Shown one piece after another: positions 4,199 to 49,993 of a stretch of 64,000 nucleotides of DNA. The position numbers and the translations under genes are program-made. Every line of letters starts with the position of its first letter. Position 1 is the stretch's first letter. A model generated the notes under the pieces. The model had not been told where the DNA came from and did no database searches. It worked only from the letters and a program-made list of their open reading frames with translations. Source of the stretch: Zygnema cylindricum (taxonomy: Eukaryota; Streptophyta; Zygnematophyceae; Zygnematales; Zygnemataceae); contig JBBHKE010001456.1 of NCBI GenBank assembly GCA_037447655.1, positions 124,001-188,000 of the forward strand, read 5' to 3'.

Positions 4199-5238
4199 TG
4201 CAATTCTGTGTCCTCCATTGGACTACAGAATACAGGAAGCCTCTAGATAGTATTTAACTAACCCACTTCAAGCCAAAACCACTGCTGCCCAAGAAGGCAA
4301 TCTGACAATTTGACTGCACCCCTGTGTAGCCTGGACTCCCCTGAGTCCGTAGAAAAAAGAATCACTGAAAAAGGCCAACCAGGCGATTAGTTATGAGAGG
4401 GTCAAAGTTGACCTTTTGTATAGAAGCTCTCTGGGAGAGGGGGTCCTATCTTCTAATTTTTCTAAGTCGTATCTCTCTCACAGACTCTATCTACTGATGT
4501 ACGGAACCAATCAGAATTGAGTTCCGTACGCAAAAGTACAGCTGCCGGTGTACTTTATGTACGGACACTGTACGACATGGCCAAAATGTCGACACATGTC
4601 AAATCCGGATTCGGTGCCATAATCTCCGGAGTTTCCACAATCCAACGGAATTTTGCCACGCGTCATCCGATGTGGCGATGGCCACAAACCGCCGAAATCT
4701 TCCTCCGCGATCTCGGCGCTAATCCCGGCCGTCCGATTAAATTCGGCTTTAATCGTAGCCGTAATAAATACATGCGCGGTATTTGTTTCATTTACGAAAC
4801 AAATGCGCGGTACTGATTTATGTCCGTACCGTAAGTCGTACATTACATATTACTGGATCTATGTATCTCGTAATTAATTCTAGTTAAATGGTTTATCGCT
4901 TGTATACATATATAAATAATTATCAAACTATATGCTAGGTAACACTACCGCTAGATGAAACGGCTAAGGCTACCGGCTACATTGTGTCTGCCGGACGGCA
5001 GGTACAAGGATCAAATCCTGCCGCCGGCACATACATTTTAATTAAATATATAAACCCTAATATAAAATTCCCGTAAACCTCAGGATAGCCAAGGTAGCCA
5101 TGGCTCTAGCTTCCTCTCCAATTTCTCAGTGACTGCGACAAGTTTGAGAGTTGGAGAGAGAAGTTAGAGATAGACTGCCTCGACTTCTATATTTCTTTTC
5201 AGACCTAGAAAATACTAATAAAACCATTAGTTTCTACA
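4199..5238 (-). repeat. 3' LTR of element 1 (chimeric U5)
   Basis: On the plus strand it runs from TGCAATTCTG to TTTCTACA, next to the polypurine tract. 4390-5238 matches the 5' LTR with only about 15 differences. 4199-4389 instead resembles the U5 of the LTR at 61201-61380 (shared GACTACAGAAT, CACTGCTGCCCAA, GACTCACCTGAGTCC-like hairpin). The abrupt change of similarity marks a recombination point near 4390. Confidence 0.85.
4938..5039 (+). promoter_or_regulatory. antisense tRNA-like module in element 1 3' LTR
   Basis: AACGGCTAAGGC (4959-4970) is A-box-like, GGATCAAATCC (5008-5018) is B-box-like, and TTTT stands at 5036-5039. CAGG/CCTG pairing flanks the B box as in a T arm. The orientation is opposite to the element. 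Confidence 0.5.
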
Positions 5239-5249
5239 CTCCCCTTATT
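5239..5249 (-). other. polypurine tract of element 1
   Basis: The minus strand reads AATAAGGGGAG immediately before the LTR start TGTAGAAA and just after the polyprotein stop at 5252. Confidence 0.85.
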
Positions 5250-5251
5250 TT

Positions 5252-8200
5252 CTAGTCAATCTTTAATTTCAGACCACACTTCTCCCTGCAAAAAATTAGT
5301 TTAGGGGAAGGCACAGGTTTGGTCATCATATCCGCTACCATCTCACTATCTGGTCTGTACTCTAAACTGATTATTTTGTTTTCTACTTTCTCTCTAACAA
5401 AGCTGAGTCTGATGTCCATGTGTTTGGCTTTAAAATGGTGTTTAGGATTGGCAAAAATAGCGATTGCTGCTTGATTATCACAAAATATTTTCTGCACACC
5501 ACTCTTAAGGTGACCAAGCTCACCAAGCAAAGACTTGACCCACATCAATTCTTTTACAGCAGAGCAAGAGGCCATATACTTAGCCTCCATGGTGGACTGA
5601 GCAATAACCTTTTGCTGTTTGCTACTCCAACAGCAAGCCCCATCACCCACATATAATACATATCCAGAAGTACATCTCCTCATCGGAGCATCACCATAAC
5701 TGGCATCACTCCAAGTAGTGATGTCAGTATTCTCCCCACCCAAATACAACCATAGATCTCTAGTTCCTACCAAGTATCTAATGACTCTCTTAGCTGCCTC
5801 CCAATCCTTCTTAGTGGGAGCATTTAGACTTCTACTCAGCACTCCTACAGCTGCAGCTAAATCCGGCCGGGTACAATTCATAAAATAGATTAGACTTCCC
5901 ACTACTTGTCTGTAAGGAATAGTCTGCATGAACTTCTGTTCTTCAGGAGATAATTCCTCGTCTAAGACTATGACTCCTTCTTCCTCACTCCCCTCACTTC
6001 CCTTCTTCAATTCAATTGGAGTTGTACAACTATTAGCTTTATCCATTTGAAATTTTTCAAGCATGTTCCCTATTGCTTCCTTTTGAGTCAATCTTATAAT
6101 TTTTCTTTTTCGGTCTCTCTCTACTTGAATTCCCAAAATATATTTTGCTTCCCCCATATCCTTCATTTCAAATCTCCCCTTAAGATCGGTTTTCAGTTTA
6201 TTAATTTTTTCCATTGATTTACTTAAAACAAGCAAATCATCAACATAAATTGCAATAAATATAAAACCTTCCTCATCTTCGAAAACATAGATTGAGTGAT
6301 CTGAGCTGATCCGAATATATCCTAGACCGGTAAGAAACTCATCAAGCTTCTTATTCCACTGTCGGGGCGCCTGTTTCAAACCATAAAGAGATTTAATCAG
6401 CCGGCATACCTTACTCTCCTCTCCTTCTTCCACAAACCCTTCGGGTTGTCGCATGAAGATCTCCTCTTCTAATTCTCCATGCAAAAAGGCTGTTTTGATG
6501 TCCATCTGGTGCACTTCCATGTCTTGCGCCGCTGCTAAACTGAGAAGTATGCGGACGGAGGGAAATCTGACCACCGGGGCAAAGGTTTCTTCGTAGTCAA
6601 TTCCTTCCTTTTGTGTAAATCCCTTTGCCACTAATCTGGCCTTGTAGCGCTCGATTGTGTTATCTGGGTTCAGTTTTAGTTTGAAAACCCACTTACAACC
6701 GATTGGTTTTCGGTTAGGTGGACAATCCACCAGCTCCCAAGTATCGGCTGCCATGATTGAAGCCATCTCCTCATTGATGGCTGTCTTCCACCGGTTTCTT
6801 TCTGGACAAGTCATTGCCTCTCGATAAGTTTGAGGTTCATCTTGATGAGATAGTTTAGTTACCTTGTTATTAACCTGTTTTTCTTGCAGTCTTTTGCTAC
6901 TTCTCCTCCCTCCCTCAAAATCTGAGGCCGGAATAGATGGTTCTCGTGGATTCTTTCGAACAAACTCGGCTTCTCCCCTATCCCTTGATTCCGAATCAAT
7001 TTCCACCACGTCTTCCGCTTCGAGTAGAGTTGTCACTGGAGTTTCCACAGCCGAGTCCTTTTCGGTCTGATTTGTTCCTGCAAGAATGTCATCGTCTCTA
7101 AAACCTGGATAGTTAGGAAGCTCAAAGTCATCAGTATTTTCTGACTCAAATCTGATTTTTACTGACTTTGTATATTTGAAGGGATCCACAGACTTTCTTT
7201 CATCCATAACTACTAGATGCTTTACCAAGATTATATCTTCTCTTTTTAGATCATAAACTCTATATCCTTTAACATCCTCATCATATCCTAATAAGTATCC
7301 CGGTTTTCCTTTAGGATCTAGCTTCCAATTGGACCGATCAGTATCTAGACTGAATACTTGACTGCCGAAAACCTTTAAATGAGATAAGTCTGGTTTCCAG
7401 CCTGTCCATCTCTCATAAGGTGTTTGATCTTTTATAGCTGAAGTAAGAACTCTATTTTTGAGGTAATTAGCACAGTTCATTGCTTCTGCCCAAAACCTTT
7501 TTCCTATCTTCTTATCCGACAACATACTTCTAGCACTATCACTTAGTGTTCTATTTAACCTTTCAGCTACCCCATTCTGTTCGGGATTTTCTGGCACTGT
7601 CTTTTGGTGTTGAACCCCATCTTCCCTCAAAAAATCCTCAAACTGGTTAGAAGTATACTCTCCACCATTGTCACTCCTTACTCTCTTGATTGGAGTTTCA
7701 TGGAGTTTTTCGCTCCATGCTTTATATTGTCTAAAACAGTCCTCAGCCTCTGACTTGTTTTTCAAAAAATATACTCGGGAATACCGAGACCAATCATCAG
7801 TTATAGTCATCATAAATCTCTTCCCCCCTGGTGAGGGCACTCTAGCCGGTCCCCAAATATCTGTGTGTACTAGATCTAGAAGTTTTTCTCCCTTGTAGGT
7901 GGCTGTTTTTGGAAAGGGTAATCTGTGTGCTTTACCTTGAGCACACCCACTACAATCACTTATATCATCACTCTCACTGAACTGAATCCCTTCCACCACT
8001 CCCATCATTTTCATCTCTCTTAACTTATCTAGATTCACATGCCCAAGCCTCTTATGCCACATCATAATATCATGAACACCAGCATAATAAAGTTTCTTCG
8101 TTTCATTACTTAAGATCAGCCTATACATCCCATGGCTACCTTTCTCAACAATGAAATAGACATCCTCCTCAAAACTAGCAGTAAAGACTCCTTCCCTAGT

Positions 8201-9610
8201 GCTAGTGAAAAAACCCTTATCATCTAATACTGATGTAGAGATAAGATTTTTGTTCAGCTCCGGAATAAACAATACATCGGAGAATGTTAATATGGATGTC
8301 TTTCCTTCTACTAACACTTTCAGATCTACCGATCCTACAAGAGTAGTGGTGACTATCCTCCCATCCCCGTACTCTATCTCTACGGTGGGAATCTTTCTTA
8401 TCTTAGTGAACAGGTGTCTATCCTTACACATGTGCATTGAGGCACCTGAATCTATAATCCAGCCTGCTTCACCTTTCAATCCACCGTAAGCACATTTCTG
8501 CCTTCGTGGAATTTCAACCTCAGTTTTCGCCTCCAACTCCTCATCCAAAAGGAGCTCATCGTCCTCGTCCTCGGATTCCGCCTCAAGTACTTGTGTGACA
8601 AGGGCCTTTTTCTTTCCTCTCGGGGTACCACCGGTCTGCCCCTCCTTTAACCGAAGCTCGGTTAGCTTGGTGCACTCTGCCATATAGTGCCCCGGTTTCT
8701 TACAAAAATGACATAAACCTTTGGGAGCCCTTGGTTCGAACTCGCCAACCTGTTTTTTCTGCTCCCTACCCCCATAGTTTCCGACTGGTTTCCGGGAATC
8801 CTTGTTCCTCCAATCGGTCGCTGTTGCCAAAGCTTGGCCACTCTTTCCTCCCCTTCGGATCTCAATCGTATTCTCTCGAACGAGAATCATCCCTACCACT
8901 GAGTTCCATATCCACCTTGAGTCTGGCAAGTCCTGCACACGGTTGACTATGTTCTCGAACTCATCAGGTAACTTCATTAGTAAACAGTTAACTTTTTCTT
9001 TTTCACTAAAAACTTTACCCGCACTCTCTAGCTCCATGAAGAGTGTAGCAAGCTCATTGCAAAAATCCAACATATTTTCCCCTTTGTATACATACTCCTT
9101 AACATTCTGATCAGCCAACTGTTGTTGCTGAATCGTACCACTTCGGTACATTTCTATGAGAGCCATCCAAAGATAGGATGCCCTCTCTACCTGCAAATGA
9201 GGACATGCAAGTCCTTGAGTGAGATGGCGTAGGATGAAGTGTTTTGCCGCCATATTGTTGAAGTCCCAGGTTTCAGTATCATTCTCCTCGTTCCTCGGAA
9301 TAGGTGACATGAATGCTAAACCAGTTGCTATTGGTGTGGTCGCCTCCTTCTCCTTTCCTTTGTCCACCACCTCTCCTTCCTTTGTTTCCTCCGTTGAAGG
9401 TGAATCCTCTTTCCTGGTGAATCTGCTTCCTTTAAACCCTGGAGGAATTCCAAGACTTGATGGACGCCCCAATCGTCCACTCACTATCCCCCAAAACCTT
9501 TTTTCGCATAGAGCTCCTATCATCATACTTTCCCAGTATATGAAGCCAGTTCCATTAAAGATTGGTACCCTAGAGGGTGGGCCCATAACCTGAAACTCTG
9601 AGACCTCCAT
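5252..9610 (-). CDS. copia gag-pol polyprotein, intact
   Basis: One ORF of 1452 residues, a normal length for a copia polyprotein. Order (approximate residues): gag domain 100-260; CCHC knuckle CHFCKKPGHYMAEC about 300-313; aspartic protease DSGAS about 387; integrase zinc-binding HKRLGH about 518 with CSGC about 552; integrase core with HTDIWGP about 583, SDNGGEY about 647 and GVAERLNRT about 683 (the DDE residues); RT with YVDDLL about 1123; RNase H with WSDASYGD about 1300, STMEAKY about 1342 and CDNQAA about 1376. All catalytic motifs are present. The first ATG lies inside the LTR U5; the next Met (residue 9) lies inside the PBS, and either could be the start. The product would make virus-like particles in the cytoplasm, copy element RNA and integrate the DNA. 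Confidence 0.95.
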   Translation of the reverse strand: MEVSEFQVMGPPSRVPIFNGTGFIYWESMMIGALCEKRFWGIVSGRLGRPSSLGIPPGFKGSRFTRKEDSPSTEETKEGEVVDKGKEKEATTPIATGLAFMSPIPRNEENDTETWDFNNMAAKHFILRHLTQGLACPHLQVERASYLWMALIEMYRSGTIQQQQLADQNVKEYVYKGENMLDFCNELATLFMELESAGKVFSEKEKVNCLLMKLPDEFENIVNRVQDLPDSRWIWNSVVGMILVRENTIEIRRGGKSGQALATATDWRNKDSRKPVGNYGGREQKKQVGEFEPRAPKGLCHFCKKPGHYMAECTKLTELRLKEGQTGGTPRGKKKALVTQVLEAESEDEDDELLLDEELEAKTEVEIPRRQKCAYGGLKGEAGWIIDSGASMHMCKDRHLFTKIRKIPTVEIEYGDGRIVTTTLVGSVDLKVLVEGKTSILTFSDVLFIPELNKNLISTSVLDDKGFFTSTREGVFTASFEEDVYFIVEKGSHGMYRLILSNETKKLYYAGVHDIMMWHKRLGHVNLDKLREMKMMGVVEGIQFSESDDISDCSGCAQGKAHRLPFPKTATYKGEKLLDLVHTDIWGPARVPSPGGKRFMMTITDDWSRYSRVYFLKNKSEAEDCFRQYKAWSEKLHETPIKRVRSDNGGEYTSNQFEDFLREDGVQHQKTVPENPEQNGVAERLNRTLSDSARSMLSDKKIGKRFWAEAMNCANYLKNRVLTSAIKDQTPYERWTGWKPDLSHLKVFGSQVFSLDTDRSNWKLDPKGKPGYLLGYDEDVKGYRVYDLKREDIILVKHLVVMDERKSVDPFKYTKSVKIRFESENTDDFELPNYPGFRDDDILAGTNQTEKDSAVETPVTTLLEAEDVVEIDSESRDRGEAEFVRKNPREPSIPASDFEGGRRSSKRLQEKQVNNKVTKLSHQDEPQTYREAMTCPERNRWKTAINEEMASIMAADTWELVDCPPNRKPIGCKWVFKLKLNPDNTIERYKARLVAKGFTQKEGIDYEETFAPVVRFPSVRILLSLAAAQDMEVHQMDIKTAFLHGELEEEIFMRQPEGFVEEGEESKVCRLIKSLYGLKQAPRQWNKKLDEFLTGLGYIRISSDHSIYVFEDEEGFIFIAIYVDDLLVLSKSMEKINKLKTDLKGRFEMKDMGEAKYILGIQVERDRKRKIIRLTQKEAIGNMLEKFQMDKANSCTTPIELKKGSEGSEEEGVIVLDEELSPEEQKFMQTIPYRQVVGSLIYFMNCTRPDLAAAVGVLSRSLNAPTKKDWEAAKRVIRYLVGTRDLWLYLGGENTDITTWSDASYGDAPMRRCTSGYVLYVGDGACCWSSKQQKVIAQSTMEAKYMASCSAVKELMWVKSLLGELGHLKSGVQKIFCDNQAAIAIFANPKHHFKAKHMDIRLSFVREKVENKIISLEYRPDSEMVADMMTKPVPSPKLIFCREKCGLKLKID
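9575..9590 (-). other. primer-binding site, initiator tRNA-Met anticodon-arm type
   Basis: The minus strand reads GGTTATGGGCCCACCC directly after the 5' LTR. It matches the complement of the initiator tRNA-Met anticodon arm, and its first 13 bases are as in the Drosophila copia PBS, which is primed by a cleaved half tRNA. It is also coding: V-M-G-P-P. Confidence 0.8.
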
Positions 9611-10338
9611 AAGTCCTCAGAGTGGACAGCTTCCAAGAAGCCTCTAGGATAATCCTGACCCCTTTGTGTTTAAGCAAAAATAACTGCCACCCTGGCAGAC
9701 AAAAACTCTGACCAACTTCACCCCTGTGAAGACAAGACTCCCCTGAGTCGATAGCAAAAAGAATCTCTGAATTTGCTCCCCTGAGCAGTAAGTTATGGAG
9801 GGTCAAAGTTGACCTTTTGTACAGAAGCTCTCTGGGAGAGGGGGTCCTATCTTCTAATTTTTCTAAGTCCTATCTCTCTCACAGACTCTATCTACTGATG
9901 TACGGAACCAATCAGAATTGAGTTCCGTACGCAAAAGTACAGCTGCCGGTGTACTTTATGTACGGACATTGTACGACATGGCCAAAATGTCGACACATGT
10001 CAAATCCGGATTCGGTGCCATAATCTCCGGAGTTTCCACAATCCAACGGAATTTTGCCACGCGTCATCCGATGTGGCGATGGCCACAAACCGCCGAAATC
10101 TTCCTCCGCGATCTCGGCGCTAATCCCGGCCGTCCGATTAAATTCGGCTTTAATCGTGGCCGTAATAAATACATGCGCGGTATTTGTTTCATTTACGAAA
10201 CAAATGCGCGGTACTGATTTATGTCCGTACCGTAAGTCGTACATTACATATTACTGGATCTATGTATCCCGTAATTAATTCTAGTTAAATGGTTTATCGT
10301 TTGTATACATACGTAAATAATTATCAAACTATATGCTT

Positions 10339-10440
10339 GGTAACACTTCCGCTAGATGAAACGGCTAAGGCTACCGGCTACTTCTTGTCTGCCGGCCGGC
10401 AGGTACAAGGATCAAATCCTGCCGCCGGCACATACATTTT
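10339..10440 (+). promoter_or_regulatory. antisense tRNA-like module in element 1 5' LTR
   Basis: AACGGCTAAGGC (10360-10371), GGATCAAATCC (10409-10419) and TTTT (10437-10440) repeat the 3' LTR arrangement. Differences between the two copies lie mostly outside the boxes. Confidence 0.5.
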
Positions 10441-10493
10441 AATTAAATATATAAACCCTAATATAAAATTCCCGTAAACCTCAGGATAGCCAA

Positions 10494-10580
10494 GGTAGCC
10501 ATGGCTCTAGCTTCCTCTCCAATTTCTCAGTGACTGCGACAAGTTTGAGAGTTGGAGAGAGAAGTTAGAGATAGACTGCC
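10494..10580. other. conserved LTR hairpin
   Basis: GGTAGCC...TCTAGCTTCCTCTCCAA pairs with TTGGAGAGAGAAG...TAGACTGCC to give a long imperfect stem. The loop holds CAGTGACTGCGACAAGT, whose complement ACTTGTCGCAGTCACTG recurs in LTR hairpins of other families. Confidence 0.55.
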
Positions 10581-10639
10581 TCGACTTCTATATTTCTTTT
10601 CAGACCTAGAAAATACTAATAAAACCATTAGTTTCTACA

Positions 10640-26815: not shown

Positions 26816-29153
26816 AAAATCAATTTCCACCATGTCGTCAGCTTCGGGTAGAGTTGTCAATGGAGTTTCCGCGGCTGAGTCGTTTTCCTTCTCATTTGTT
26901 CTTGCAAAATTTTTATCTTCTCTTAAATCTAAATAGTTAAGAAGCTCAAAGTAATCGAATTTTTTTGACTCAAATCTGATGTTTACTGACTTTGTATATT
27001 TGAAGGGATCCACACACTTTCTTTCATCCATAACTACTAGGTGATTTATTAAGATTATATCTTCTTTTTTTATATCATCAACACTGTATCCTTTTATATC
27101 CTCATCATATCCTAATAAGTACCCCGGTTTTCCTTTAGGATATAACTTCGAATTAGATCGATCTATATCTAGACTGAACACTTGACTCTCAAAATCTTTA
27201 AGTGAGATATGTCTGGTTTCAGGCCGGTCCATCTGTCATAAGGTGTTTGGCCTTTTACTGCTGAAGTAAGAACTCTATTTTTGAGGTAATTAGCACTTTT
27301 CATTAATTCGGTTCAAAACCTTTTTCCTATCTTCTTATCTGACAACATAATTCTAACAGTGTCACTTAGTGTGTTATTTAATCTTTTAGCTAACCTATTC
27401 TGTTGCGGGTTTTCAAGAACTGTCTTTTGGTGTTGGACTCCATCTTCCCTTAGAAAATCCTCAAACTGGTGAGAGGTAAACTCTCCACCATTGTCACTCC
27501 TTACTCTCTTGGTTGGGGTTTCATGGATTTTTTTCCCTCCATGCTTTATATTGTCTAAAACATTCATGAGCTTGACTTATTTTTCAAAAAATACACCTTG
27601 GAATACCAATCATCAGTGATAGTCATCATAATTCTCTTCCCCCTGGGTGAATGCACTTAGGCCGGTCCCAAATTATCTGTGTGTACTAAATTTAAAATAT
27701 TTTCTCTATGATAGGTGGTTTTTTTTGGGAAAGGTAACCTGTGTGCTTTACCTTGAGCACATCCACTACAATCACTTAGATTCTCACTCTCACCGAACTG
27801 AATCCCATCCACTACTCCCATCTTTTTCATCTCTCTTAACTTATATAGATCCACATGCCCAAGCTTGTTATGCCACAAAATTATATCATGAACACCAACA
27901 TAATAAATTTCTTCTTTTCATTGCTTAAAATCAGCCTAAACATCCCTTGGCTACCTTTTTTAGCAGTGAAATAAACTTCCTCCTCAAAACTAGCATTAAA
28001 GACTCCTTTCCTAGTGCAAGTATCAAAACCATTGTTATCTAATACAGATGTAATGATGAGGTTTTTGTTCAGCTACAGAATAAAATATACATCGGAGAAT
28101 GTAACTATGGATGTCTTTCGTTCTACTTACACTTTCAGATCTACCGATCATACAAGAGTAGTACTGACTATGCTCCCATCCCGTACTCTATCTCTACGGT
28201 GGAAATCTTTCTTATCTTAGTGAAAAGGTGTTTATCCTTACACATGTGGATGGAGGCACGACAATCCAGCCCGCTTCACCTTTCAATCCACCAAAAGCAC
28301 ATTTCTGCTTTCGTTGAATTTCGACCTCGTTTTTCACCTCCAACTTCTCATCAAATAGGAGCTCATTGTCCGCGTCCTTGGATTCCGCCTCATGTACCTG
28401 TGTCACAAGGGCCTTTTTCTTTCCTCTCAGGGGTCCACCTGTCTGCTCGTCCTTTAACTGCAGCTCAGTTAACTTAGTGCACTCCGCCATAAAGTGACCT
28501 AGATTCTTACAAAAGTGGCACAATCCCTTGGGAGCCCTTGGTGTGAACTCGTTAGTCTGTTTTTTGTGCCTGAGGCCTCCATAATTTTCGACTGGTTTCC
28601 TCGAATCATTGTTCCTCTAATCGGTCCCAGCTGCAAAGGTTTGCCCAATCTTTCCTCCCTTTTAGATCTCAATCGTATTCTTCCGAAAGATAATCATCCT
28701 TACCACTCAATTCCATATCCACCTTGAGGTTTTCAAGTCCTGCACAGGGTTGACTATGTTCTCAAACTCATCTAATAACTTCATAAGCAAGCAGTTAACC
28801 TTCATCTTTTCAGTTTCAACCTATTGAGCAATCTCTAGCTCCATGAAAAATGTTGTGAGCTCATTACAAAAATCCAACAACTTCCCCCTTTTGTATACAT
28901 ATGCATCAATTTTCTGATTAGCCAACTACTGTTGGTAAATTGTACCAATTCGGTACATCTCTATGAGAGCCACCCAAAAATTGGATTCCCTCTTTACACG
29001 CAAATGAGGAGATGCAAACCATTGAGTAAGATGGTGGAGGATGTCGTGCTTTGCCGCCATATTGTTGTAGTCCCAAGTATCGTTATCATACTTCTCGTTC
29101 CTCAGAATAAGTGATATGAATGCGAAACCGGTTGCTATTGGTGTGTCTGTCTC

Positions 29154-29307
29154 CTTTTCCTTTCCTTTGTCCATCACTTCCCCTTCTTTTGTCTCTTGTG
29201 TTGGAGATGGATCTGTATTTTTGGTGAATCCTTTTCCTTTCCTTTGTCCATCACTTCCCCTTCTTTTGTCTCTTGTGTTGGAGATGGATCTGTATTTTTG
29301 GTGAATC
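29154..29307. repeat. 77-bp perfect tandem duplication in gag
   Basis: 29154-29230 and 29231-29307 are the same sequence, starting CTTTTCCTTTCCTTTGTCC and ending TTTTTGGTGAATC. The unit length breaks the gag frame. Confidence 0.9.
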
Positions 29308-35975: not shown

Positions 35976-36153
35976 TGTAGAAATTAATGGTTTTTTAAGT
36001 ATTTTCTAGGTCTAAAATGCAATGCAGAAAAAGAAGCCGAGGCAATCTGCCTCTAACTCCTATCTTCAGCTCCCAAACTTGTCGCACTCACTGAAGGTTG
36101 AAGAGGGAGCTAAACCATGGCAAACTATGCTATTCAGAGAGGGAAAAGCAGTT
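35976..36153 (+). repeat. LTR F, first 178 bp only
   Basis: TGTAGAAATTAATGG start and hairpin with loop ACTTGTCGCACTCACTGAA. Cut within 180 bp by another LTR start. Confidence 0.65.
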
Positions 36154-36399
36154 AGTATTGAAAAGAGGTTATTACTAGTTCACTTCTCTATTTTAGTTAT
36201 ACTTTAAAGAGAGAGAGTGAGGATCAAAGGCACGCCATGGCTGCTGCCATATTTAGAAAGTGGCACATTTTGAAGTAGAGGATATTTTACATGATTATTG
36301 CCTAAGTTAGGATCTGAAACTTGGTCCTTGGTTCACTATGTAGTCGTTAGCCTTATCCACTAAGGATTTATCGAAACGATACATGAAGGATCTCAAAGA
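36154..36399 (+). repeat. LTR G', first part only
   Basis: Like the first 240 bp of the element I LTR (TTGAAAAGAGG, AAAGAGAGAGAGTGAGG, CCATATTTAGAAAGTGG). It carries a degenerate tRNA-like segment with CCTTATCCACTAAGG (36351-36366). Cut by LTR H. Confidence 0.65.
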
Positions 36400-37289
36400 T
36401 GAAATTTTGTGGTCTCTATTAACCCACAGAATGAGCAGCCTATGTAAAGCCTCTATGATAAAATTTGACCCTTTCACTTTCCCACTAAATAACTGCCACC
36501 CAGGCACACAAATATTCTGACCACCCTCACCCTAGTGAGGACAATACTCTCCTGAGTCAAACGCAAAAAGAATCTCTGAATTTGCTCCCTTGAGCAGTAA
36601 GTTATGGTTGGCCAAAGATGGCCTATAAATACAAAAGGTCACCTAAAGAGAGGCGCCTCAAACACGTTAAGTCCCTCAACTCCTACTCACAACTACTTAC
36701 TACTCTACCCTCGGCCAATCAAAAGAGTGTATAGTACAAGAAGGTATAGTGTCAGATTGTACTTCGTGTATGGCCATTGTACAACATGGCCTTCTAGTTG
36801 ACACTTGTCAACATGGGAGCCATCGTTCCTCCTCCCATCCTTTCCGGCGTCCAATGATGTGGTGCTTCGTGGCACAGCACGCCGCTTTGTTTTAAAGCCG
36901 CCAAAGATTCATTCGGGTTTGGCGGGGTCGACAACGTCCGTCCGATCATGTATTTTACACGGCTATATTCGCGTCCGTGAGCGCCGTTTGACTATAGATG
37001 CCGTTTCGTCAATTTTGGTATGTTTAAATGAAAGTGACGTTTTGCGTAACACTTTGAATACATAGAAAAATTAATACGTGTATCTTTTCGTTAACGCCGT
37101 AATGGTTAATGCGTACGTCTATGCTGAGTTTGCAGACCTAGGTTTTTCTGGTTTAGGGCAACATTTTGGCAATTTGTGAATCTGTCTACCTTTTTCTTTC
37201 TAACTATGGTGGCAGCTATGGTGACTCTCTATCTCTCTTCACTCTAGATTCTAAATTAAGAAGTGAATATTAATTAATTCTTTTCAACA
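36400..37289 (-). repeat. LTR H (minus orientation)
   Basis: The plus strand runs TGAAATTTTGTGGTCTC...CTTTTCAACA and then CTCCCTTTAATT (PPT). 890 bp. CCTATAAATAC near 36622 is the likely TATA site. Confidence 0.8.
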
Positions 37290-38384
37290 CTCCCTTTAAT
37301 TCTTAGTCAACTTTTAATTTAAGTCCACAATTTCCTCTGCAAAATTTTAACTTAGGAGAAGGTTCCGATTTTGTCATCATGTCTACAATCATCTCTTTAT
37401 CACTTTTATGAACCAATATAATTATTTTATTCTCAACCTTCTCTCTGACAAAGCTTAGTCGTATATCGATATTTCTAGCTTATAAATGGTGTTTTGGATT
37501 AGCTGGGATAGATATAGCAGCTTGATTATCACAAAAGACATTTTGAGTCCCAGATTTCATGAACCCAAGTTCTTCGAGTAGAGATTACCCACATTTATTT
37601 TTTAGTGGCAGCACATGAATCCATGTATTTAGCCTCCATAGTGGACGGAGCAACTACTTTATGTTGTTTGTTACTCCAACAACATGCACCAGATCTAATT
37701 TGCTACACATATCCAGTTGTACATTGTCTCAAAGGCACATCCCCATAACTGGAGTCACTCCAAGTGGTGATGTCAGTGTGCTCCCCTCCCAAATGCAACC
37801 ATAATTCTCTTGTTCCCACCAAATATCTCATCACTCTTTTGGCTACTTACCTGTATTTTTTCCTAGGTTCATTTAGACTTCTACTGAGAACACCTACAGC
37901 TGCAGCTATGCCCGGACGTGTACAATTCATAAAGTAAATTAAACTGCCTACAATTTGTCGATAAGGAATTCTTTCCATAAACCTCTTTTCTTCCTCACCC
38001 ATCTCATCATTCAAAATCAATATCCCTCCCTTTTCACTCCCCTCCGATACTTTCTTTAGATCCATGGGAGTGGTACACCCATTTGCTTTCTCCATGTGAA
38101 ACTTTTCTAGCATATTAGCGATAGCTTCTTTCTTAGTGAGTCTTATAATTCTATTCCCTCTTTCCCTCTCCATTTGAATCCCCAAAATGTATTTTGCTTC
38201 GCCAAGATCTTTCATGTCAAACCGACTTCTTAGATCCTCTTTGAGTTTGTTAATTTTATCTAAGGACTTGCTTAAGACTAACAAATCATCTACATAAATA
38301 GCAATAAATATCACTCCATTTTCATCCTCAAATATATATATGGAGTGATCTGAACTTATTCTAATGTATCCCAAACGTGTCAGA
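37290..38384 (-). pseudogene. element H RT-RNase H remnant
   Basis: From the PPT the minus strand encodes the polyprotein C-terminus and RNase H with broken frames (WSDSSYG-like near 37745, MEAKYMDSCAA near 37625), then an open 175-codon piece 37847-38374 with SSDHSIYIFEDENG, YVDDLLVL (RT active site), GEAKYILGIQME, IPYRQIVGSLIYFMNCTRP and VGVLSRSLNEP. It ends in the N gap, so the upstream part may exist but is unassembled. Confidence 0.85.
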
Positions 38385-38394
38385 NNNNNNNNNN
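38385..38394. other. assembly gap (10 N)
   Basis: Ten N between RT sequence of element H and the mirror segment. The size 10 is probably a placeholder. Confidence 0.95.
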
Positions 38395-38712
38395 GCTAGT
38401 TTTGTATAAAATGTGTCAAGTCTAAGCGCATGCACGTACTTAACAAGGAGAAGCAATCACGCCACAATTAATCGGCAACGTAATTACAAATATATAGAAA
38501 CTTTAAGCAGTACACACAACAAAACATTGCGGAATTACCAATTCCGAGATATATCTTAGAACTCCAGCGTACAAGTTTAGGCCTACATCCGTTGTAAAAT
38601 CATTTTATAGGAGATGAAGTTTTAGACGGTGAAAGATTTATACCGCCGTCGTTACCGCACGGAAACTAGGAGTGAGAGAGAGAAATTTCATATTGATTTT
38701 ATCTGTTTACTT
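38395..38712. other. exact mirror copy (reversed, not complemented) of 38799-39116
   Basis: Read base by base, position p equals position 77511 minus p for all of 38395-38712, with no mismatch seen, and the match ends at 38713/38798. The source is the start of the LTR at 38776. A reversed but uncomplemented copy cannot be made by DNA copying or recombination. It lies directly on the N gap. I take it as an assembly or gap-filling artefact. It should not be read as real sequence. Confidence 0.9.
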
Positions 38713-38775
38713 CAGATTTTGCTGCCTTCTACATGATAGACTAACCAGCGACAAAAATACTTCCTCGTTGGTTAG
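38713..38775. other. left flank of element I with palindrome
   Basis: Sixty-three bp between the mirror segment and the element. GACTAACCAGCGA at 38743-38755 is nearly the reverse complement of TCGTTGGTTAG plus TC across the element I insertion, so the empty target was a 13-bp-arm palindrome. Confidence 0.6.
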
Positions 38776-39658
38776 TGTTGAAAAGAGGTAATCAATAGTT
38801 CATTTGTCTATTTTAGTTATACTTTAAAGAGAGAGAGTGAGGATCAAAGGCACGCCATTGCTGCCGCCATATTTAGAAAGTGGCAGATTTTGAAGTAGAG
38901 GATATTTTACTAAAATGTTGCCTACATCCGGATTTGAACATGCGACCTCAAGATTCTATATAGAGCCTTAACCATTAAGGCGTTACAAAACAACACACAT
39001 GACGAATTTCAAAGATATATAAACATTAATGCAACGGCTAATTAACACCGCACTAACGAAGAGGAACAATTCATGCACGTACGCGAATCTGAACTGTGTA
39101 AAATATGTTTTGATCGGACGGCCAGCATTATTACCGCCACCCAAAGTGAGCTTTTAGCGGCATTCGGAGATTGATTCATGCGGTTCCACGTGGCGCCACA
39201 TTATTTGATACCGAGGAAGAGGGGAGGAGGAACCATGGCTCCTGATTTGAGAGGTGTCACTTTGTAGACTATGTCGTACAATGGACGTACAATAAGTACA
39301 TCGCCCATTATTCCTTCTTGTACTAAATAGTGTTCCTATTGGATTAGGGTTTAGTAGTAGGTAGTCGTGTGTAGGAAGACCAAGCCTTAGTGATATTTAG
39401 GCACCTCTCTCTAAGAGAGCTTGTAACTATAAATGTTATCTTTGACCAGCCATAATTTACTGCTCAAGGGAGAAAATTTAGTGATTCTTTTTGCGTTTGA
39501 CTCAAGGGAGTCTTGTCCTCATAGACGTGAGGGTGGTCAGAATATTTGTGTGCCTAGGCGGCACTTATTTAGTGGGAAAGTTGAAGGGGCAAATATTATC
39601 CTAGAGGCTTTATATAGGCTACTCATTTTGTGGGTCAATGGAGACCAAAGAATTTTTC
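38776..39658 (+). repeat. 5' LTR of element I
   Basis: Starts TGTTGAAAAGAGG and ends at GAATTTTTC before GATTATGGGCCC. It has a G-box-like CCACGTGGCGCC near 39187, GTAC sites, CTATAAATG near 39428 and the TTTTTGCGTTTGACTCAAGGGAGTC tract in U5. Confidence 0.88.
38912..38990 (-). promoter_or_regulatory. antisense tRNA-like module in LTR
   Basis: On the minus strand CCTTAATGGTTAAGG (38966-38980) has the D-arm/A-box form of a leucine-type tRNA, GTTCAAATCC (38930-38939) is B-box-like, and TTTT is at 38912-38915. Confidence 0.5.
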
Positions 39659-39674
39659 GATTATGGGCCCACCC
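39659..39674 (+). other. primer-binding site of element I
   Basis: GATTATGGGCCCACCC, one change from the element 1 site. Confidence 0.7.
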
Positions 39675-41030
39675 TCTAGGGTGCCCATATTTGATGGATC
39701 AGACGTTTTATATTGGGAAATGATGATGGAGGGAGAAATATTTGAGAAGAATCTACGGGGCATAGTGTTTGGTCAAATTCGATGCCCACCTCCACCTGGG
39801 TTTAGAGGGACACGTTTTTCAGGCACCTCCGCCACTACGGTAGCCGGAACAGCTACCACCATCACTGAGGATGAAGATGAGGAAGGAGAGAAGATTGTCA
39901 TGTAAGGAGAAAAGGGAGGAGTAGCAACTCAAGTGACACCATTGCCGAAGGCGATACCCATAGCAGCACCACCAGCAATGGTGACAAGGGTTCAGACTGA
40001 CAAATCAGAGTATGAAAAGTGCAACTACAAAGACAAGGTTGGTTAGCACTTAATTTTTAAAAGTGTAGCAAAGGGCATTGCCATTCCCCTTATGTATGTC
40101 AAATCTTCATCTCAGATTTGGATATCATTATTTAACAAATATAAGAGTGGATCGTTGCAGCAGCAGCAGCAGTTGGCAGAAATTAAGATTGCAGCTTATA
40201 CTTATAGGGGAGGAAGCATGAATAATTATTGCAATGATTTAGGAGCATTGTTTGGAGAGCTAGAGAGTGCGGGTAACTCATGACCTGAGAGACAAAGAGT
40301 GAACACATTAATGATGAAATTACTTGAAGAGTATGAGAATATCATTAACCGATTGCACGACATATGACATAGCAATTGGAATTGGGGTGACACAGTGGGA
40401 ATGATTTTAGTGAAAGAAAGCACCATAAAGCTTAGGAGAGGGAGTGCAAGTGTTAAAGAATTGTCTGCAAGAGTTGATTGGCGGAAGCGTGATGAGGAGA
40501 GAGGGAAAGATCCCGATCGAAACTTTGGTGGAAAAGGACAAAGAGGTGGCAAATTTGATAGACAGGGGAGAGGAACTTCTCGAGGAGGATAATGTCACTT
40601 CTGCAAGAAACCGGGATACAAACTTCTCGAGGAGGAATATGTCACTTCTGCAAGAAATCGGGATACTATATGGCAGAGTGTGTCAAACTTGCAGATATTC
40701 GATAGAAAGATGGACAAAAAACTGCAAAGGATGAAGGAAAGAAAAAAGCTTTTCTAACTCAAGTTCATGATGAGGAAGAGGACGAAGAAACTGAACCGGA
40801 AGTGGAGATTGAGGAGCTTCTTCTTAATCCGAAAAACACTCAAAAGCATGTTGACATTCCATGGAGACAGAAGTGTGCTTTTGAAGGTAAAAGGGATCCA
40901 CCCGAGGATGGGCGGATCATAGAATCAAAGGCCTCAATCCATATGTGCAAAGAAAAGAAGTGGTTCCCTAAACTGAGAAAGATCCTAGTTGAGATAGAAT
41001 ACGGAGATGGTAGAGTAGAACCACAAGTGT
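39664..41030 (+). pseudogene. element I gag and start of protease
   Basis: Frame starts MGPPSRVPIFDGSDVLYWE, then a proline and threonine-rich part, gag domain pieces (GSLQQQQQLAEIKIAAYTY, SMNNYCNDLGALFGELES), a basic arginine/glycine region and the knuckle CHFCKKPGY, which is partly duplicated (40574-40667). The protease site that should read DSGAS reads ESKASIHMC, so the catalytic Asp is lost. Stops at about 39905, 40045, 40283, 40365 and others. Confidence 0.85.
40574..40667 (+). repeat. 47-bp tandem duplication in the zinc-knuckle region
   Basis: 40574-40620 and 40621-40667 share AACTTCTCGAGGAGGA and GTCACTTCTGCAAGAAA, with a few differences. The unit length shifts the frame inside the zinc knuckle. 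Confidence 0.85.
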
Positions 41031-42585
41031 AGTTGGAAATGTTGACTTGAAGGTTCTAATTGATGGAAAAGCCTCAAATCTAACACTCTTAGATGTTGTG
41101 TACATTCCACAGCTTAGCAAGAACCTAGTCTCAACAGTTGTCCTAGATGAAAAGGAGTTTGAAACAGGAACTAGGAAAGGAACCATCACAACAACCTTTG
41201 ATAATGCGGTTTATTTCATAGCTGAGAAGGGCAGTCAAGGAATGTTCATAATTGTTTTTTGCAATGAAAATAGTGTTCTCTACTCCTGTGCAAGTGAGAT
41301 GATGCTTTGGCACAAAAGGTTAGGGCATGTGCACCTAGATAAACTAAAAAAAATGAAGAAAAAGGGAAGAGTGGAGGGTATTACTTTTGAGGATGATGAG
41401 ACTTTCGATGATTGTAGTGGATGTGCCCAAGTGAAGCTTCATAGACTTCCATTTCCAAAAGCAACCATATTTAGGAGAGAGAAAGTATTTGATCTAATTC
41501 ACACTGATGTGTGGGGACCTGCTAGGTATGTTTCACATAGGGGGAACAGATGGATGTTAACCATCACAAATGATTCGTCTAGATACACAAAGGTATACTT
41601 TATCAGACAAAAGTCAAAGGTATTCAGATGTTTCAAATAGTATAAAGTATGGAGAGAAAAACTACATGAAACCTCAATAAAAGAGATAAGAAGTGATAAT
41701 GGGAAAGAATACACCTCAAGGGAATTTGAAAAATATCTTAAATAAGAAGGAATTCATCATGAGAAAACTCTTCCCTATAATCAGGAACAAAATAGAGTAG
41801 CATAAAGAGTGAATAGAACTTAAAGAGATATGTCTAGAAGTATGTTAAGTGATAAGAGGATTGGGTTGCAATTTTGGGCCGAGTCTATGAACTCTGCTAA
41901 TTTCATCAAAAATAGAGTTTCAACTTTAGCAAATAAAGAGGAAACTCTATATAAGAGGTGGATTGGAAGAAAGCATGATTTGTCTAGTTTGAGGGTGTTC
42001 GGAAGTCAAGTCTACAGTTTGGATTCCGATAACACTAAATGGAAATTAGAGGGGAGAAGGAAACCATGATATCTTGTAGGATTTTATGAGAGCACAAAAA
42101 TATACCGAGTATATGACTTGAAAAAGAGAGATATCATTTTGGTAAAACACATAGTGGTGATGAATGAAGAGAAGTCCATTGATCCATTCAAATGTAATAA
42201 GGAAGTCAAAATCACATTTGAAACGGATCAGTTTTTTGACTTTCAATTTGAAAATGAAGAGAATGAAGAAGGAGAAAAAGAAAAATCTGCAGATCTACTA
42301 AAAGAGAAGGAGGCAAAGACAACATCCGAGGCAACGCCACAATACGAAGTGGAAACCAATGAGGAATTTGATGAGACACCGGAATTGGAAGATAGGGGAG
42401 CTGAAAATCTTCCTAAACAAAACCCAAAGATGACTTCTATACCGGCGTCCGATTTTGAAGAGGGAAGAAGAAGTAGTAAACGACTTCAAGAAAGACAAGT
42501 AAATAACCAAATCACAAAGATGTTTCACCCAGATGAACCTCAGATATACTTTGAGGCCATAAACACCCCAGAAAGTAGCCAGTAG
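41031..42585 (+). pseudogene. element I protease end and integrase
   Basis: Open from 41047 to 41640: protease end, GAG-pre-integrase (HKRLGHVHLDKL, DDCSGCAQ) and integrase HTDVWGP. After a stop come SDNGKEYTS, EQNRVA, stop, RVNRT, FWAESMNSANFIKNR, then integrase C-terminus and linker (42118-42585) with acidic repeats and PASDFEEGRRSSKRLQE. The catalytic Asp residues are visible; the Glu falls at the stop region. Confidence 0.85.
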
Positions 42586-44010
42586 ATCACAACTATAAAT
42601 GAAAAAATGGCTTTCGTCATGGAAGCCAATACATGGGAGTTGCCCACCGAACCGAAAACCGATCGGATGTAAGTGGGTTGTTAAACTTTAATTAAACCTA
42701 AACAATACCATTAAGAGGTACAAAACAAGGTTGGTTCCAAAAGGTTATACTCAAAAAGAGGGGATAGATTATGAAGAAACCTTTGCACCAGTAGTTAGAT
42801 TTCCTTCTGTTAGAATTCTCTTAAGTTTAGCCGCAGCAGAGGATTTGGAAGTACTCCAGATAGATATTAAAACGACCTTTTTGCACGGAGAATTGGAAGA
42901 AGAAATTTACATGAGGCAACCGGAAGGATTCGTGGAAAGCGGGAAGAAAGCAAGGTATGCAAACTGATAAAATCACTTTATGGGCTTAAACAAGCCCCGC
43001 GACAATGGATTATATAGTTACACGAATTTTTGACCGGTTTGTGGTATAGATCACTCCATATATTTATCTCAGGATGAGAATAGAGTGATATTTATTGGTA
43101 TTTATGTGGATGATTTGTTGGTCTTAAGCAAGTCGTTAGGTAAGATTAACTAACTAAAACATGATCTTAGAAGTCGTTTTGATATGAAAGATTTCAGCGA
43201 AGCAAAGTACATTTTGGGAATTCAGATGGAGAGAGATAGAGGGAATAAGATTATAAGACTCACTTAGAAAGAAGCAATCAGTAATATGCTAGAAAAATTT
43301 CAGACGGAAAAAGCAAATGGATGTACTACTCCATGGATTTGAAGAAAGTGTTTGAGGGGAGTGAAGAGAGAGGAATATTGACTTTTAATGATGAGATGGA
43401 TGAAATAAAGAAAATTTATGGAAAATATCCCTTATCGGTAGATTATAGGCAGTTTAATCTATTTTATGAACTGTATAGATGGGCTGGCTGTGGGGTCCAA
43501 GTGAAGTCTAAATGAAGAGGAGGAGGTTTCAAAGAGTGATGAGGTATCCGGTGGGAGGGAATTGTGGTTTGGAGGGGAGAACCGACATCACCACCTCGGG
43601 GATGCCTCAGGAGACGGTTCGCGCGGTGCACGAATCGTATCACGAAATCGATCCGGTGTACGCCTTAAAAGCAAGCTCAAAAGTAGTTGTCACCACCATG
43701 AACCGATACCCACCCCGGTAGTCACCCATGCACCAAGTTAAAACCCTCAAGAATCCTAGGTCCATCGAACCCAAAATTTTGTGATAATCAAGCTGCTATC
43801 TCTATTGCAGCTAATCCGAAACATCACTTCAAAGCTAAGCATATGGATATTAGACTAAGCTTTGTTAAAGAAAAGGTTGAAAATAAAATCATTAAACTGG
43901 TTCATACAAGTGATAGTTGAACCAGTGATTGCAGACATGATGACAAAACCAATGCCTTCCCCTAAGTTTATTTATCGCAAAGAAAATTGTGGATTAAAAT
44001 TGAAAATTGA
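42586..44010 (+). pseudogene. element I RT and RNase H (with foreign insert)
   Basis: RT pieces: [46 protein letters not shown] near 43105-43130, and EAKYILGIQMERD. RNase H is replaced between RTDITT (about 43590) and FCDNQAAISIA (about 43780) by about 190 bp of unrelated GC-rich sequence. The end HHFKAKHMDIRLSFVKEKVE to LKID is present. Many stops and shifts. Confidence 0.8.
43597..43783. other. GC-richer foreign segment inside RNase H
   Basis: It replaces the WSDASYGD...STMEA part of RNase H. Words such as CGGTTCGCGCGGTGCACGAATCG are unlike the rest of the element. No terminal repeats or known motif are seen. It could be filler DNA from a repaired break. Confidence 0.5.
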
Positions 44011-44016
44011 CTAAGA

Positions 44017-44027
44017 ATTAAGGGGAG
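44017..44027 (+). other. polypurine tract of element I
   Basis: AATTAAGGGGAG-type run directly before TGTTGAAAAG. Confidence 0.75.
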
Positions 44028-44905
44028 TGTTGAAAAGAGGTAATTAATAGTTCACTCGTCTATTTTAGTTATACCTTAAAGAGAGAGAGTGAGGTTGAAA
44101 GGCAAGCCATGGCTGCCGCCATATTTAGAAAGTGGCAGATTTTGAAATAGAGGATATTTTACTAAAATGTTGCCTACATCCGGATTTGAATCTGCGACCT
44201 CTGGATCCTATATAGGTGGGCGCCTTAACCGTTAAGGCGCTACAAAACGATACACATAACGGATTTCAAAGATATATAAACATTAACGCGACGGCTAATT
44301 AACACCAAACTAACGAAGAGGAACAATTCATGCACGTACGCGAATCTGAACTGTGTAAAATATGTTTCGATCGGACGCCCAGCATTATAGCCGCCACCCT
44401 AAGTGAGCTTTTGGCGGCATTCGGAGATTGCCTCACGCGGTGCCACGTGGCGCCACATTATTTGATACCGGAGAAGATGGGAGGAGGAACCATGGCTCCC
44501 GATTTGAGAGGTGTCACTTTGTAGACCATGTCGTATAATAGACGTACAATAAGTACATCGCCCATTATACCTTATAGTACTAAATAGTGTTCCTATTAGA
44601 CTAGGGTTTAGTAGTAGGTATTCGTGTGTAGGCAAACCAAGACTTAGTGATATTTAGGTACCTCTCTCTAAAAGAGCTTATAACTATAAAGGTCATCTTT
44701 GACCAGCCATAACTTACAAGGAGCAAATTCAATGATTCTTTTTGCGTTTGACTCAAGGGAGTCTTGTCCGCACAGGTCTGATGGTGGTCAAAATATTTGT
44801 GTGCCTGGGCGGCACTTATTCAGTGAAAGTTGAAGGGGCAAATATTATCCTAGAGGCTTTACATAGGTTGTTCATTTGTGGGTCAATGGAGACCATATAA
44901 TTTCA
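44028..44905 (+). repeat. 3' LTR of element I
   Basis: 878 bp, TGTTGAAAAGAGG to ATAATTTCA, followed by the duplicated target GTTAG. It is a close match to 38776-39658. G-box GCCACGTGGC 44442-44451, CTATAAA 44684-44690. Confidence 0.88.
44164..44243 (-). promoter_or_regulatory. antisense tRNA-like module, best leucine-type copy
   Basis: The minus strand reads GCGCCTTAACGGTTAAGGCGC (44220-44240), a perfect D-arm-like inverted repeat containing GGTTAAGGCGC as in tRNA-Leu, then about 30 nt, then GATTCAAATCC (44182-44192, B box) and TTTT (44164-44167). The acceptor and T stems do not close well, so it is probably not a working tRNA. Confidence 0.55.
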
Positions 44906-46480
44906 GTTAGTCTTCCATCGACGAAATTGATTAGTTCTTACTTTACGGAACAACACTTCCACGATATTGCACTGTTTCTTTTTTAGCAGCGAGCCTCTCT
45001 CGTCGCTGAATGGAAATCCAAAAGCGAAATTGTTTCGTCGTCATCTCCGGAAAAGCGGTCTGCACTTTTTGTTTGTTCTCATTGTAACGATGACCCTGTC
45101 TCATCGCATGGCCTACAACGGCGAGGTTGTTTCGTCGCTGGTTTATGAAGTGTGAGTTTGCAAAATAACTGAAAATGTTTATGGCTATCAACATTAAAGA
45201 GGGTTTTTACTTTGCAACAAATTTGTATTTTGACTGGGCTGAAACCATAAAAATTGGAGTTTATAAAAAAAAAACAGATTTATCCATGTAGGAAAAGAAA
45301 AATACGACTAAGATACGCTGTGAGAAGTAAGATAAACGAAGTCATATTTTCAGGATATACAGATGATACACAAAGGAATAGATGTAAAGACCATTTAATA
45401 TATTTCAAAACAAAAAAGTCATCGAAACAACATGAAAGCAATTGAAAAAAGACAAATTGAATAAAAAATGGAGAATAAATTGACACAAATAAAGTTATTT
45501 GTTAAAAACAATAGAAGAAAATTTACAAAAAATATATATTTAATGGTGATATTGTTTTTCAACGTTATATTATAAAAAAAATGTAGTGAAGCTAATTAAT
45601 CTACAATATGATACAAAACTCTATGTACTACACTATTCTTAACGCTTGTGTCTCTTGCACAAAAACCCCTATTAAAGGAAAAAACCCTTCTTAATACTAC
45701 ACACACTAACTAAATAGTAACAATCAAACACGACGGAGATAGATCCTTGCAAAATTATTTACAGTTTTCTCCAAACGTTGTCATCCGCTCCAACACCTTG
45801 AAGGTGATACTTTCTTCTTCCCTACGATCATATGTTGGCGTAGGTGTCCCTTAATACAACGACCGTCGGATGGAAATCGATGGTCGATTAAAGTCTCAAA
45901 TACAAAAGAGAAAGAGAGAGAAAAGGAATAATGAGTAACAATGAGAGAAAATAGAGTGTGAGAGGATGGACAAGGGACAGTCGCAAAGAGGAAAAGAAGG
46001 GGGGACGCGGATGAGGTTGGATTAAAGAGTGGGAGAGAGAGTGGATCAGGAGTATCAAGAGAGTGAGGAAAGAAAATGGGAAAGGGTGAAGAAGGGAGAG
46101 GTAGAGGGCGCATTTAATTGAATCACGTGGATGGAAAACAAGGAGGCATATTTAAGGTGAATAGGGGGATTATGGATAGGGCAAATACTTAAGAGGGGAG
46201 TAGGGGCGATTTAATGGAGAGGGATTGAGAGATAGACGGAGAGGGACACAACATGAGAGAGAGAGTGGTAAGAAAAAAATGAGAGAGAAGAGTAGAGAAA
46301 GGGTATAGGACAGAATAAAAAATAGAGAGAGAGGGATGAAAAACGGATAGAGCCACGCACTTAACCATGATTTTCTTCGTAAACCCTAAAAGATGTAACG
46401 ACGATAATGATGCGCACTTCTTTGATGTTTCCCCCATGTTATTGTCAACCCTAATACTGTTGTAAACCCTAAAAGTAAGT
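44906..46480. other. non-retroelement region with purine-rich strand
   Basis: 44906-45160 contains repeated CGTCGCTG/CGACGAAA words with inverted copies, perhaps an old DNA transposon end. 45890-46340 has an extreme purine bias on the plus strand (AGAGAGAG, GGGAGAG). Apparent ORFs there on the minus strand are low-complexity Ser/Pro/Leu translations of that bias. No gene recognised. Confidence 0.45.
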
Positions 46481-46627
46481 ATGGCGTATTGGAGGTCGCA
46501 AGACTATGTGAGGCGGCGGGATGACGTTTTGCATCTTGCCCAAAAATTGGCGACGTTTTGTGAAAATGGCTTCGCGAGATTCAAATGTCACCCACCAGGA
46601 GACGAGGATGTGGATGGGAATAGTTAG
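46481..46627 (+). CDS. small ORF of unknown function
   Basis: Forty-eight codons, starting MAYWRSQDYVRRRDDVLH and ending GDEDVDGNS. Composition is protein-like (balanced charged residues, few low-complexity runs) in a region otherwise poor in ORFs. I recognise no family. It could be an exon of a decayed gene or chance. There is no clear promoter; the repeated AAACCCTAAAAG words upstream are common in plant DNA. Confidence 0.25.
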   Translation: MAYWRSQDYVRRRDDVLHLAQKLATFCENGFARFKCHPPGDEDVDGNS

Positions 46628-48665: not shown

Positions 48666-48815
48666 GTCGACGTCATTAATTCCGAAACATTACACCATGG
48701 TTTCCCAATTTTCTCTTTGCGTATTTTCTCACTCCCTACCGTCGACGTCATTAATTCCGAAACATTACGCCATGGTTTCCCAATTTTCTCTTTGCGTCTT
48801 TTCTCATTCCCTACC
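48666..48815. repeat. 75-bp tandem duplication
   Basis: 48666-48740 and 48741-48815 both start GTCGACGTCATTAATTCC and end CATTCCCTACC or CACTCCCTACC. They differ at only a few bases. 75 is a multiple of three, so overlapping frames stay open across both copies (for example 48618-48842), giving a repeated 25-residue unit. Coding status is unknown. Confidence 0.85.
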
Positions 48816-49993
48816 GTCGAACTACAGTACGCCCAAAAGTAGTAAAATAAATTACTATTATAGCTCTTTCGTTATTTACCAATGTTATCGTGTTTCGTTT
48901 TAAAAATTGCGAAACACAAGTGTTAGTGTTAGAGGGAGAGGAATAATACTAAGGTTGAGACCCCGCGCAATTTTTCCATTACGCGTAGCGGCGAGGAAAA
49001 ATTAGCAAGTTTCCCTGCTAAAAAATTTCACATTTGCGTGACGCGTAAATAAGTTTTTCACTGCTATTCAGGTGATACTTTAACTACAATCAACGGGGCC
49101 ATGACTTTGTTAAATTTTGCATATCAAAATGGAATGCCGGCCTTTAGCTGAAGGAGGAAGACGTAAACCCGAGTATACAAGATCTAAAAAAATGGATTAC
49201 ATGTAAAGAGATTAAATTGACTCATTAAATTGTGGTATTTTACAAATTTTTCAGCAAGTAAAAAAAATTATCATTGCGCTAAACTTTATAAAACATCAAA
49301 TAAACACGATAATTTAACACATGGGCAAACACCCTAAATTTAAGTTATATCTCTCAATTAAATTCGCAAATTTTCAAGATCCATTTCATGAAATTGGTCT
49401 AAAAAATACAATTCACCACGAAGTTTTATAATACTACACGTAGGCCAACAAAAAGGTGCAGATCTATGTTTCTTTTAGCACACCGAAAATATATTTTATT
49501 GAATCACAAAATGTTATTAAATCTATTTAGGGTATAAAGGCGTAAATCAACAAATTTAGCGATAACTTATGCATTTAACACTCATTTATATACAAAACTC
49601 GATAGTCACCATATAGCGTTTTTCCGATATAATTTGTGTTCACACAATCAAATTTTGACCACGTGAGGACAATTCGCTGAATATTCTCTTGTCTTTCTTT
49701 AAATGAATCAAATATTAGTGCACTTTCCCTTGTTGTCAACTCACTTTGCTGTCCCCTTAGTGACAAAAATAATTTAGAAGCCTCTCGGTAGTTTTAATTA
49801 ACCCCTTATCAACTAAGATCATCTACCCAAGCAATCGAGACCCCGGATCGCCCTCGCACTCTAGACTTCCAAGAGACAATCTCACTCCACCCCCGCCTCG
49901 ACTTCAAGTTCAAAGCAAAACAATCACTAAAACCAACCCGGACGATCGCCATATAGTATAAAATATGCAATAATTAAAAACTATCGGGAGAGG
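48816..49993. other. AT-rich region without recognised genes
   Basis: Short ORFs only. A small GC-richer patch at 49830-49960 (ATCGAGACCCCGGATCGCC) has no recognised motif. Confidence 0.4.

Follow-up and report, generated by a model that had tools for sequence, protein, structure and literature searches.

A 318-bp reversed, uncomplemented copy of LTR sequence beside an assembly gap in Zygnema cylindricum, very probably a computational artefact

At positions 38395–38712 of a 64-kb stretch of Zygnema cylindricum DNA (contig JBBHKE010001456.1; the whole stretch that was analysed is called the window in the following), 318 bases read as a neighbouring retrotransposon LTR sequence turned back to front on the same strand. 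This raises the question of whether the segment is a structure of the genome itself or was created during assembly. Polymerases copy their templates in antiparallel orientation, and real turned-round copies are reverse complements. For a strand that is reversed but left uncomplemented, we know of no copying chemistry and of no polymerase capable of parallel-strand copying. The features on which the analysis is based are the following:

37847–38384, minus strand: Copia-type element J, reverse transcriptase domain cut by the gap (Pfam RVT_2, reading frame and homology to element K)
38385–38394, no strand: run of 10 N, assembly gap, the sole N run in the 64-kb window
38395–38712, no strand: plain reversal of 38799–39116, uncomplemented, 318 bp, likely artefact (0/318 mismatches)
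38713–38770, no strand: flanking DNA, 58 bp, separating the reversed segment from the target duplication, unique in the window and joining GTTAG
38771–38775, no strand: target site duplication GTTAG, 5' copy (from the sequence)
38776–39655, plus strand: 5' LTR of the Copia-type element I, 3' limit approximate (LTR pair alignment)
38799–39116, plus strand: source of the reversed copy, within the 5' LTR (identity with the 3' LTR at 293/318 aligned sites)
44028–44905, plus strand: 3' LTR of element I (LTR alignment)
44906–44910, no strand: target site duplication GTTAG, 3' copy (from the sequence)

The base-by-base comparison showed that the base at each position p from 38395 to 38712 equals the base at 77511 - p, with 0 mismatches in 318 positions. 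An earlier note on this DNA had described the segment as 39116–38799 read backwards on the same strand, and this description was borne out in full, as was its remark that the segment lies directly on a 10-N gap: the first base of the segment is the first base after the N run. Towards the inside, the mirror match stops at once (38713 is C, 38798 is G), while its outward end meets the 10 Ns at 38385–38394. The resulting layout is symmetric, with 318 + 86 + 318 bases (38395–39116, 722 bases in total) and a left edge that coincides with the edge of the gap; the central 86 bases between segment and source are not mirrored.

In addition, the window was compared with its own plain reversal, as the earlier note had proposed. 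At a threshold of exact matches of at least 22 bases, this comparison recovered the pair 38395–38712 / 38799–39116, and all other reversed matches of this length were pieces of the same segment set against homologous LTR stretches within 44112–44367 and 36187–36290. A complement-only comparison of the 64-kb window gave no exact match of 22 bases or more. Searched as given, the segment found no match but itself on either strand of the window, the source included (BLAST, E ≤0.001); read in reverse, it matched three LTR copies in the window (BLAST). As a separate observation, 36151–36400 holds a truncated plus-strand copy of the first part of the element I LTR (approximately 81% identical), whose end at 36400 is also the start of minus-strand LTR-like sequence of element J, and this junction is probably a nested insertion point.

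The source of the segment lies in element I, a Copia-type retrotransposon at 38776–44905 with the target duplication GTTAG on both sides; it thus carries the paired LTRs and the target site duplication that define an LTR retrotransposon. The two LTRs are identical at 796/873 ungapped positions (91.2%). The domains gag_pre-integrs and Pol_BBD were found in one open reading frame at 41014–41637 (Pfam), which is the single reading frame of element I that was scanned, and the Copia domain order was checked in the related element K only. The flank past the 3' LTR (44911–46500) is unique in the window except for one 34-base match. Because the 3' LTR can be told apart from the source stretch by 25 differences in 318 aligned sites and an indel of 5 bases, the reversed segment was copied from the 5' LTR itself. 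The earlier note had likewise named this very 5' LTR as the source, which agrees with the 0 mismatches to the 5' LTR against 25/318 to the 3' LTR. It had also placed the source at the start of the LTR; the stretch is indeed inside the 5' LTR, but it begins 23 bases in from the LTR start at 38776.

The divergence of the LTR pair provides a clock for the age of the copy. Element I is an old retrotransposon, with a Jukes-Cantor distance of 0.094 between its LTRs. Had the copy been made at the time of the LTR insertion, about 30 differences should have accumulated, whereas 0 were observed, and the probability of finding none at the age of the element is about 1e-13 under this Jukes-Cantor clock. 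The upper bound on the age of the copy is about a tenth of the age of element I at 95%. For a copy made by a computer, age does not enter, and zero divergence follows without any adjustment.

On the other side of the gap, the sequence breaks off within a second retrotransposon. The reading frame of the minus-strand element J runs into the Ns, and its RVT_2 domain was matched solely at profile positions 139–242 of 244 (Pfam). Element J (37282–38384) is homologous to positions 5231–6335 of element K, where the open reading frame goes on for about 3.3 kb past the homologous point 6335, unbroken to 9616. Element K is itself a minus-strand Copia-type element (4313–10639) with an unbroken stop-to-stop reading frame of 1454 aa at 5252–9616, which holds six Pfam domains of Copia gag-pol, and with flanking repeats at 4313–5238 and 9715–10639 that are identical at 892/923 ungapped positions. 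Its Copia polyprotein gave 35 protein hits with 21–45% identity among 7992 scored candidates, the named ones coming from fungi, a butterfly and plants; a close relative was absent from these 7992 candidates, identity reaching 45% at most. Pattern scans of prokaryote and viral contigs returned 24 and 2 matches, none of which was confirmed, and little was to be expected there.

Because element J is cut in the middle of a domain, at RVT_2 profile position 139, the gap represents an assembly break. If J was once complete, then at least about 3.3 kb are missing at the gap and the 10 Ns are a placeholder, an estimate that assumes that J was not truncated in the genome. The true size of the gap is therefore probably not 10 bases, although little would be missing if the truncation of J is already present in the genome, which is possible. 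Two features expected of an assembly artefact are present here: the anomaly coincides with the N run, and sequence is interrupted at the gap, as seen from the cut RVT_2 domain of J and the longer frame of K, with the same proviso of a genomic truncation of J.

At the inner edge of the segment, past 38712, the mirror pairing falls to 7/42, and to 7–13/42 at shifts of up to 3 bases, which is the chance level. The two sides of the join share no overlap, and the segment was therefore set blunt against 38713. A join based on overlap was considered and rejected, since the mirror match would then continue beyond 38712. For the 58 bp that follow (38713–38770), the search for homologues in the window returned only chance words of 9–10 bases (E ≥2.5), and the genuine sequence of the right-hand contig probably starts with 38713–38770.

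Altogether, we consider it close to certain that 38395–38712 is a computational artefact of gap scaffolding or gap filling, in the form of either an insertion or an overwrite. This verdict rests on the anatomy of the segment, read from its sequence, together with what is established about how DNA is copied. The earlier note had proposed an error of gap filling or file handling as the simplest reading, and the exact match to a source copy close by, the position at the sole N run, the element J cut off on the other side of the gap and the non-overlapping join all speak for it. As to the program step behind it, we infer that the right-hand contig originally started at about 38713 and that a read, a consensus piece or a contig-end buffer covering 38799–39116 may have been handled on the wrong strand. 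Either such a piece could have been reversed and left uncomplemented, or a minus-strand read could have been complemented and left unreversed, the letters being identical in both cases. The wrong-strand piece would then have been placed blunt at the contig end, beside the 10-N placeholder. The offset of 86 bases between source and join counts against the insertion model, which leaves it unaccounted for. A rule for gaps of 10 Ns was sought in the Meraculous paper, where '10 N' does not occur in the main text (PMC3158087). Among the matches listed for open-licence literature, titles and abstract starts held no report of reversed, uncomplemented sequence at assembly gaps, which is weak evidence of absence.

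Could the segment have arisen in another way? The window does contain mirror matches some 20 bases long, and chance symmetry or low-complexity sequence may be considered on this ground. In 20 dinucleotide shuffles of the window, the maximum length of an exact mirror match was 16–25 bases, and with the segment masked the real window reached 21 bases; when this masked window was searched against its own reversal by BLAST (low-complexity filter on, E ≤0.01), it gave two weak hits (E 0.007), 34 and 31 columns long, both of them stretches matched to their own reversal. Set against a maximum of 25 in the shuffles, 318 exact bases refute an origin by chance, and the composition of the segment (A 112, T 89, G 60, C 57; 3-mer entropy 5.67 bits) is ordinary, which speaks against low complexity; we regard this origin as virtually impossible. 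Somewhat more credit, yet still very little, is due to a real mirror duplication in the organism, by which a strand was read in parallel and the gap is nearby either by coincidence or as the result of a structure that hinders sequencing. In its favour, the segment stands in the record with 0 mismatches, and mirror repeats forming H-DNA are known to trouble polymerases. However, the segment is not a purine-rich, pyrimidine-rich or simple-sequence tract as in natural mirror repeats of the H-DNA type, its divergence is zero beside an LTR pair that is 91% alike, and it adjoins the only gap in the window. Moreover, we know of no enzyme or recombination route to a reversed, uncomplemented copy of such length. 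Taken together, a real duplication appears extremely improbable. The dinucleotide ratios of the segment were of no help in separating an artefact from a real structure. An ordinary inverted duplication was rejected as well: the segment is not the reverse complement of its source and, as given, matches only itself on both strands.

A further possibility stays within the artefact reading and changes what happened to the data. Here, a buffer of 722 bases (38395–39116) would have been under reversal in memory when the right 318 bases were written over the left 318. In this case the error would have erased genuine sequence instead of adding false sequence; the result is still an artefact. The symmetric 318 + 86 + 318 frame, with its left edge exactly at the gap edge, is what such an in-place overwrite would leave, but a finished loop would mirror the centre too, and the middle 86 bases are unmirrored. 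The scenario is also ad hoc. We hold it to be unlikely and give it a small share of the high confidence placed in the artefact as a whole.

Two tandem duplications were also observed in the window. At 29152–29307, a 77-base unit is present in two perfect tandem copies inside a minus-strand reading frame of 153 aa, which by eye reads like a Copia gag remnant; this tandem is either a recent duplication or, possibly, a second assembly fault. A 75-base tandem duplication with 96% matches is located at 48666–48820, outside reading frames of 150 aa or more.

With an artefact as the preferred reading, the segment is most likely without biological meaning, and nothing biological is expected of it. While it is of no importance as biology, it is perhaps of use for quality control: strand-handling errors can be tested for at little cost by setting an assembly against a plain reversal of itself. 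In the 64-kb window, this test was quiet apart from the segment and the two weak self-reversal hits. In two papers, mouse DNA that was reversed and left uncomplemented serves as sequence unrelated to human DNA (PMC9907223), and motifs reversed without complementing serve as a control (PMC8920891); both thus take plain reversal as a null. If the same pattern holds at other gaps of the assembly, false sequence is spread through it and a software fault may be traceable. If, on the other hand, the segment were real, it would require template copying along parallel strands and overturn present knowledge of how DNA is copied.

Three known systems invite comparison. Like mirror repeats of the H-DNA type, segment and source form two arms on one strand, one of which reads forwards as the other reads backwards. 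Natural mirror repeats are short and consist of polypurine-polypyrimidine or simple tracts, whereas the segment comprises 318 bases of ordinary mixed sequence. With inverted duplications and template-switch copies, the segment has in common that a further copy stands turned round close to its source; such copies are reverse complements, in contrast to the segment, which is uncomplemented and shows no match to the source on either strand. Assembly errors at scaffold gaps differ from the present case in that the copy here is reversed without complementing, for which no printed case was found among the matches listed. They resemble it in the remaining respects: the segment is a false local copy of nearby sequence, and it adjoins a placeholder gap within repeats, the setting in which contigs break off and gap-filling tools act.
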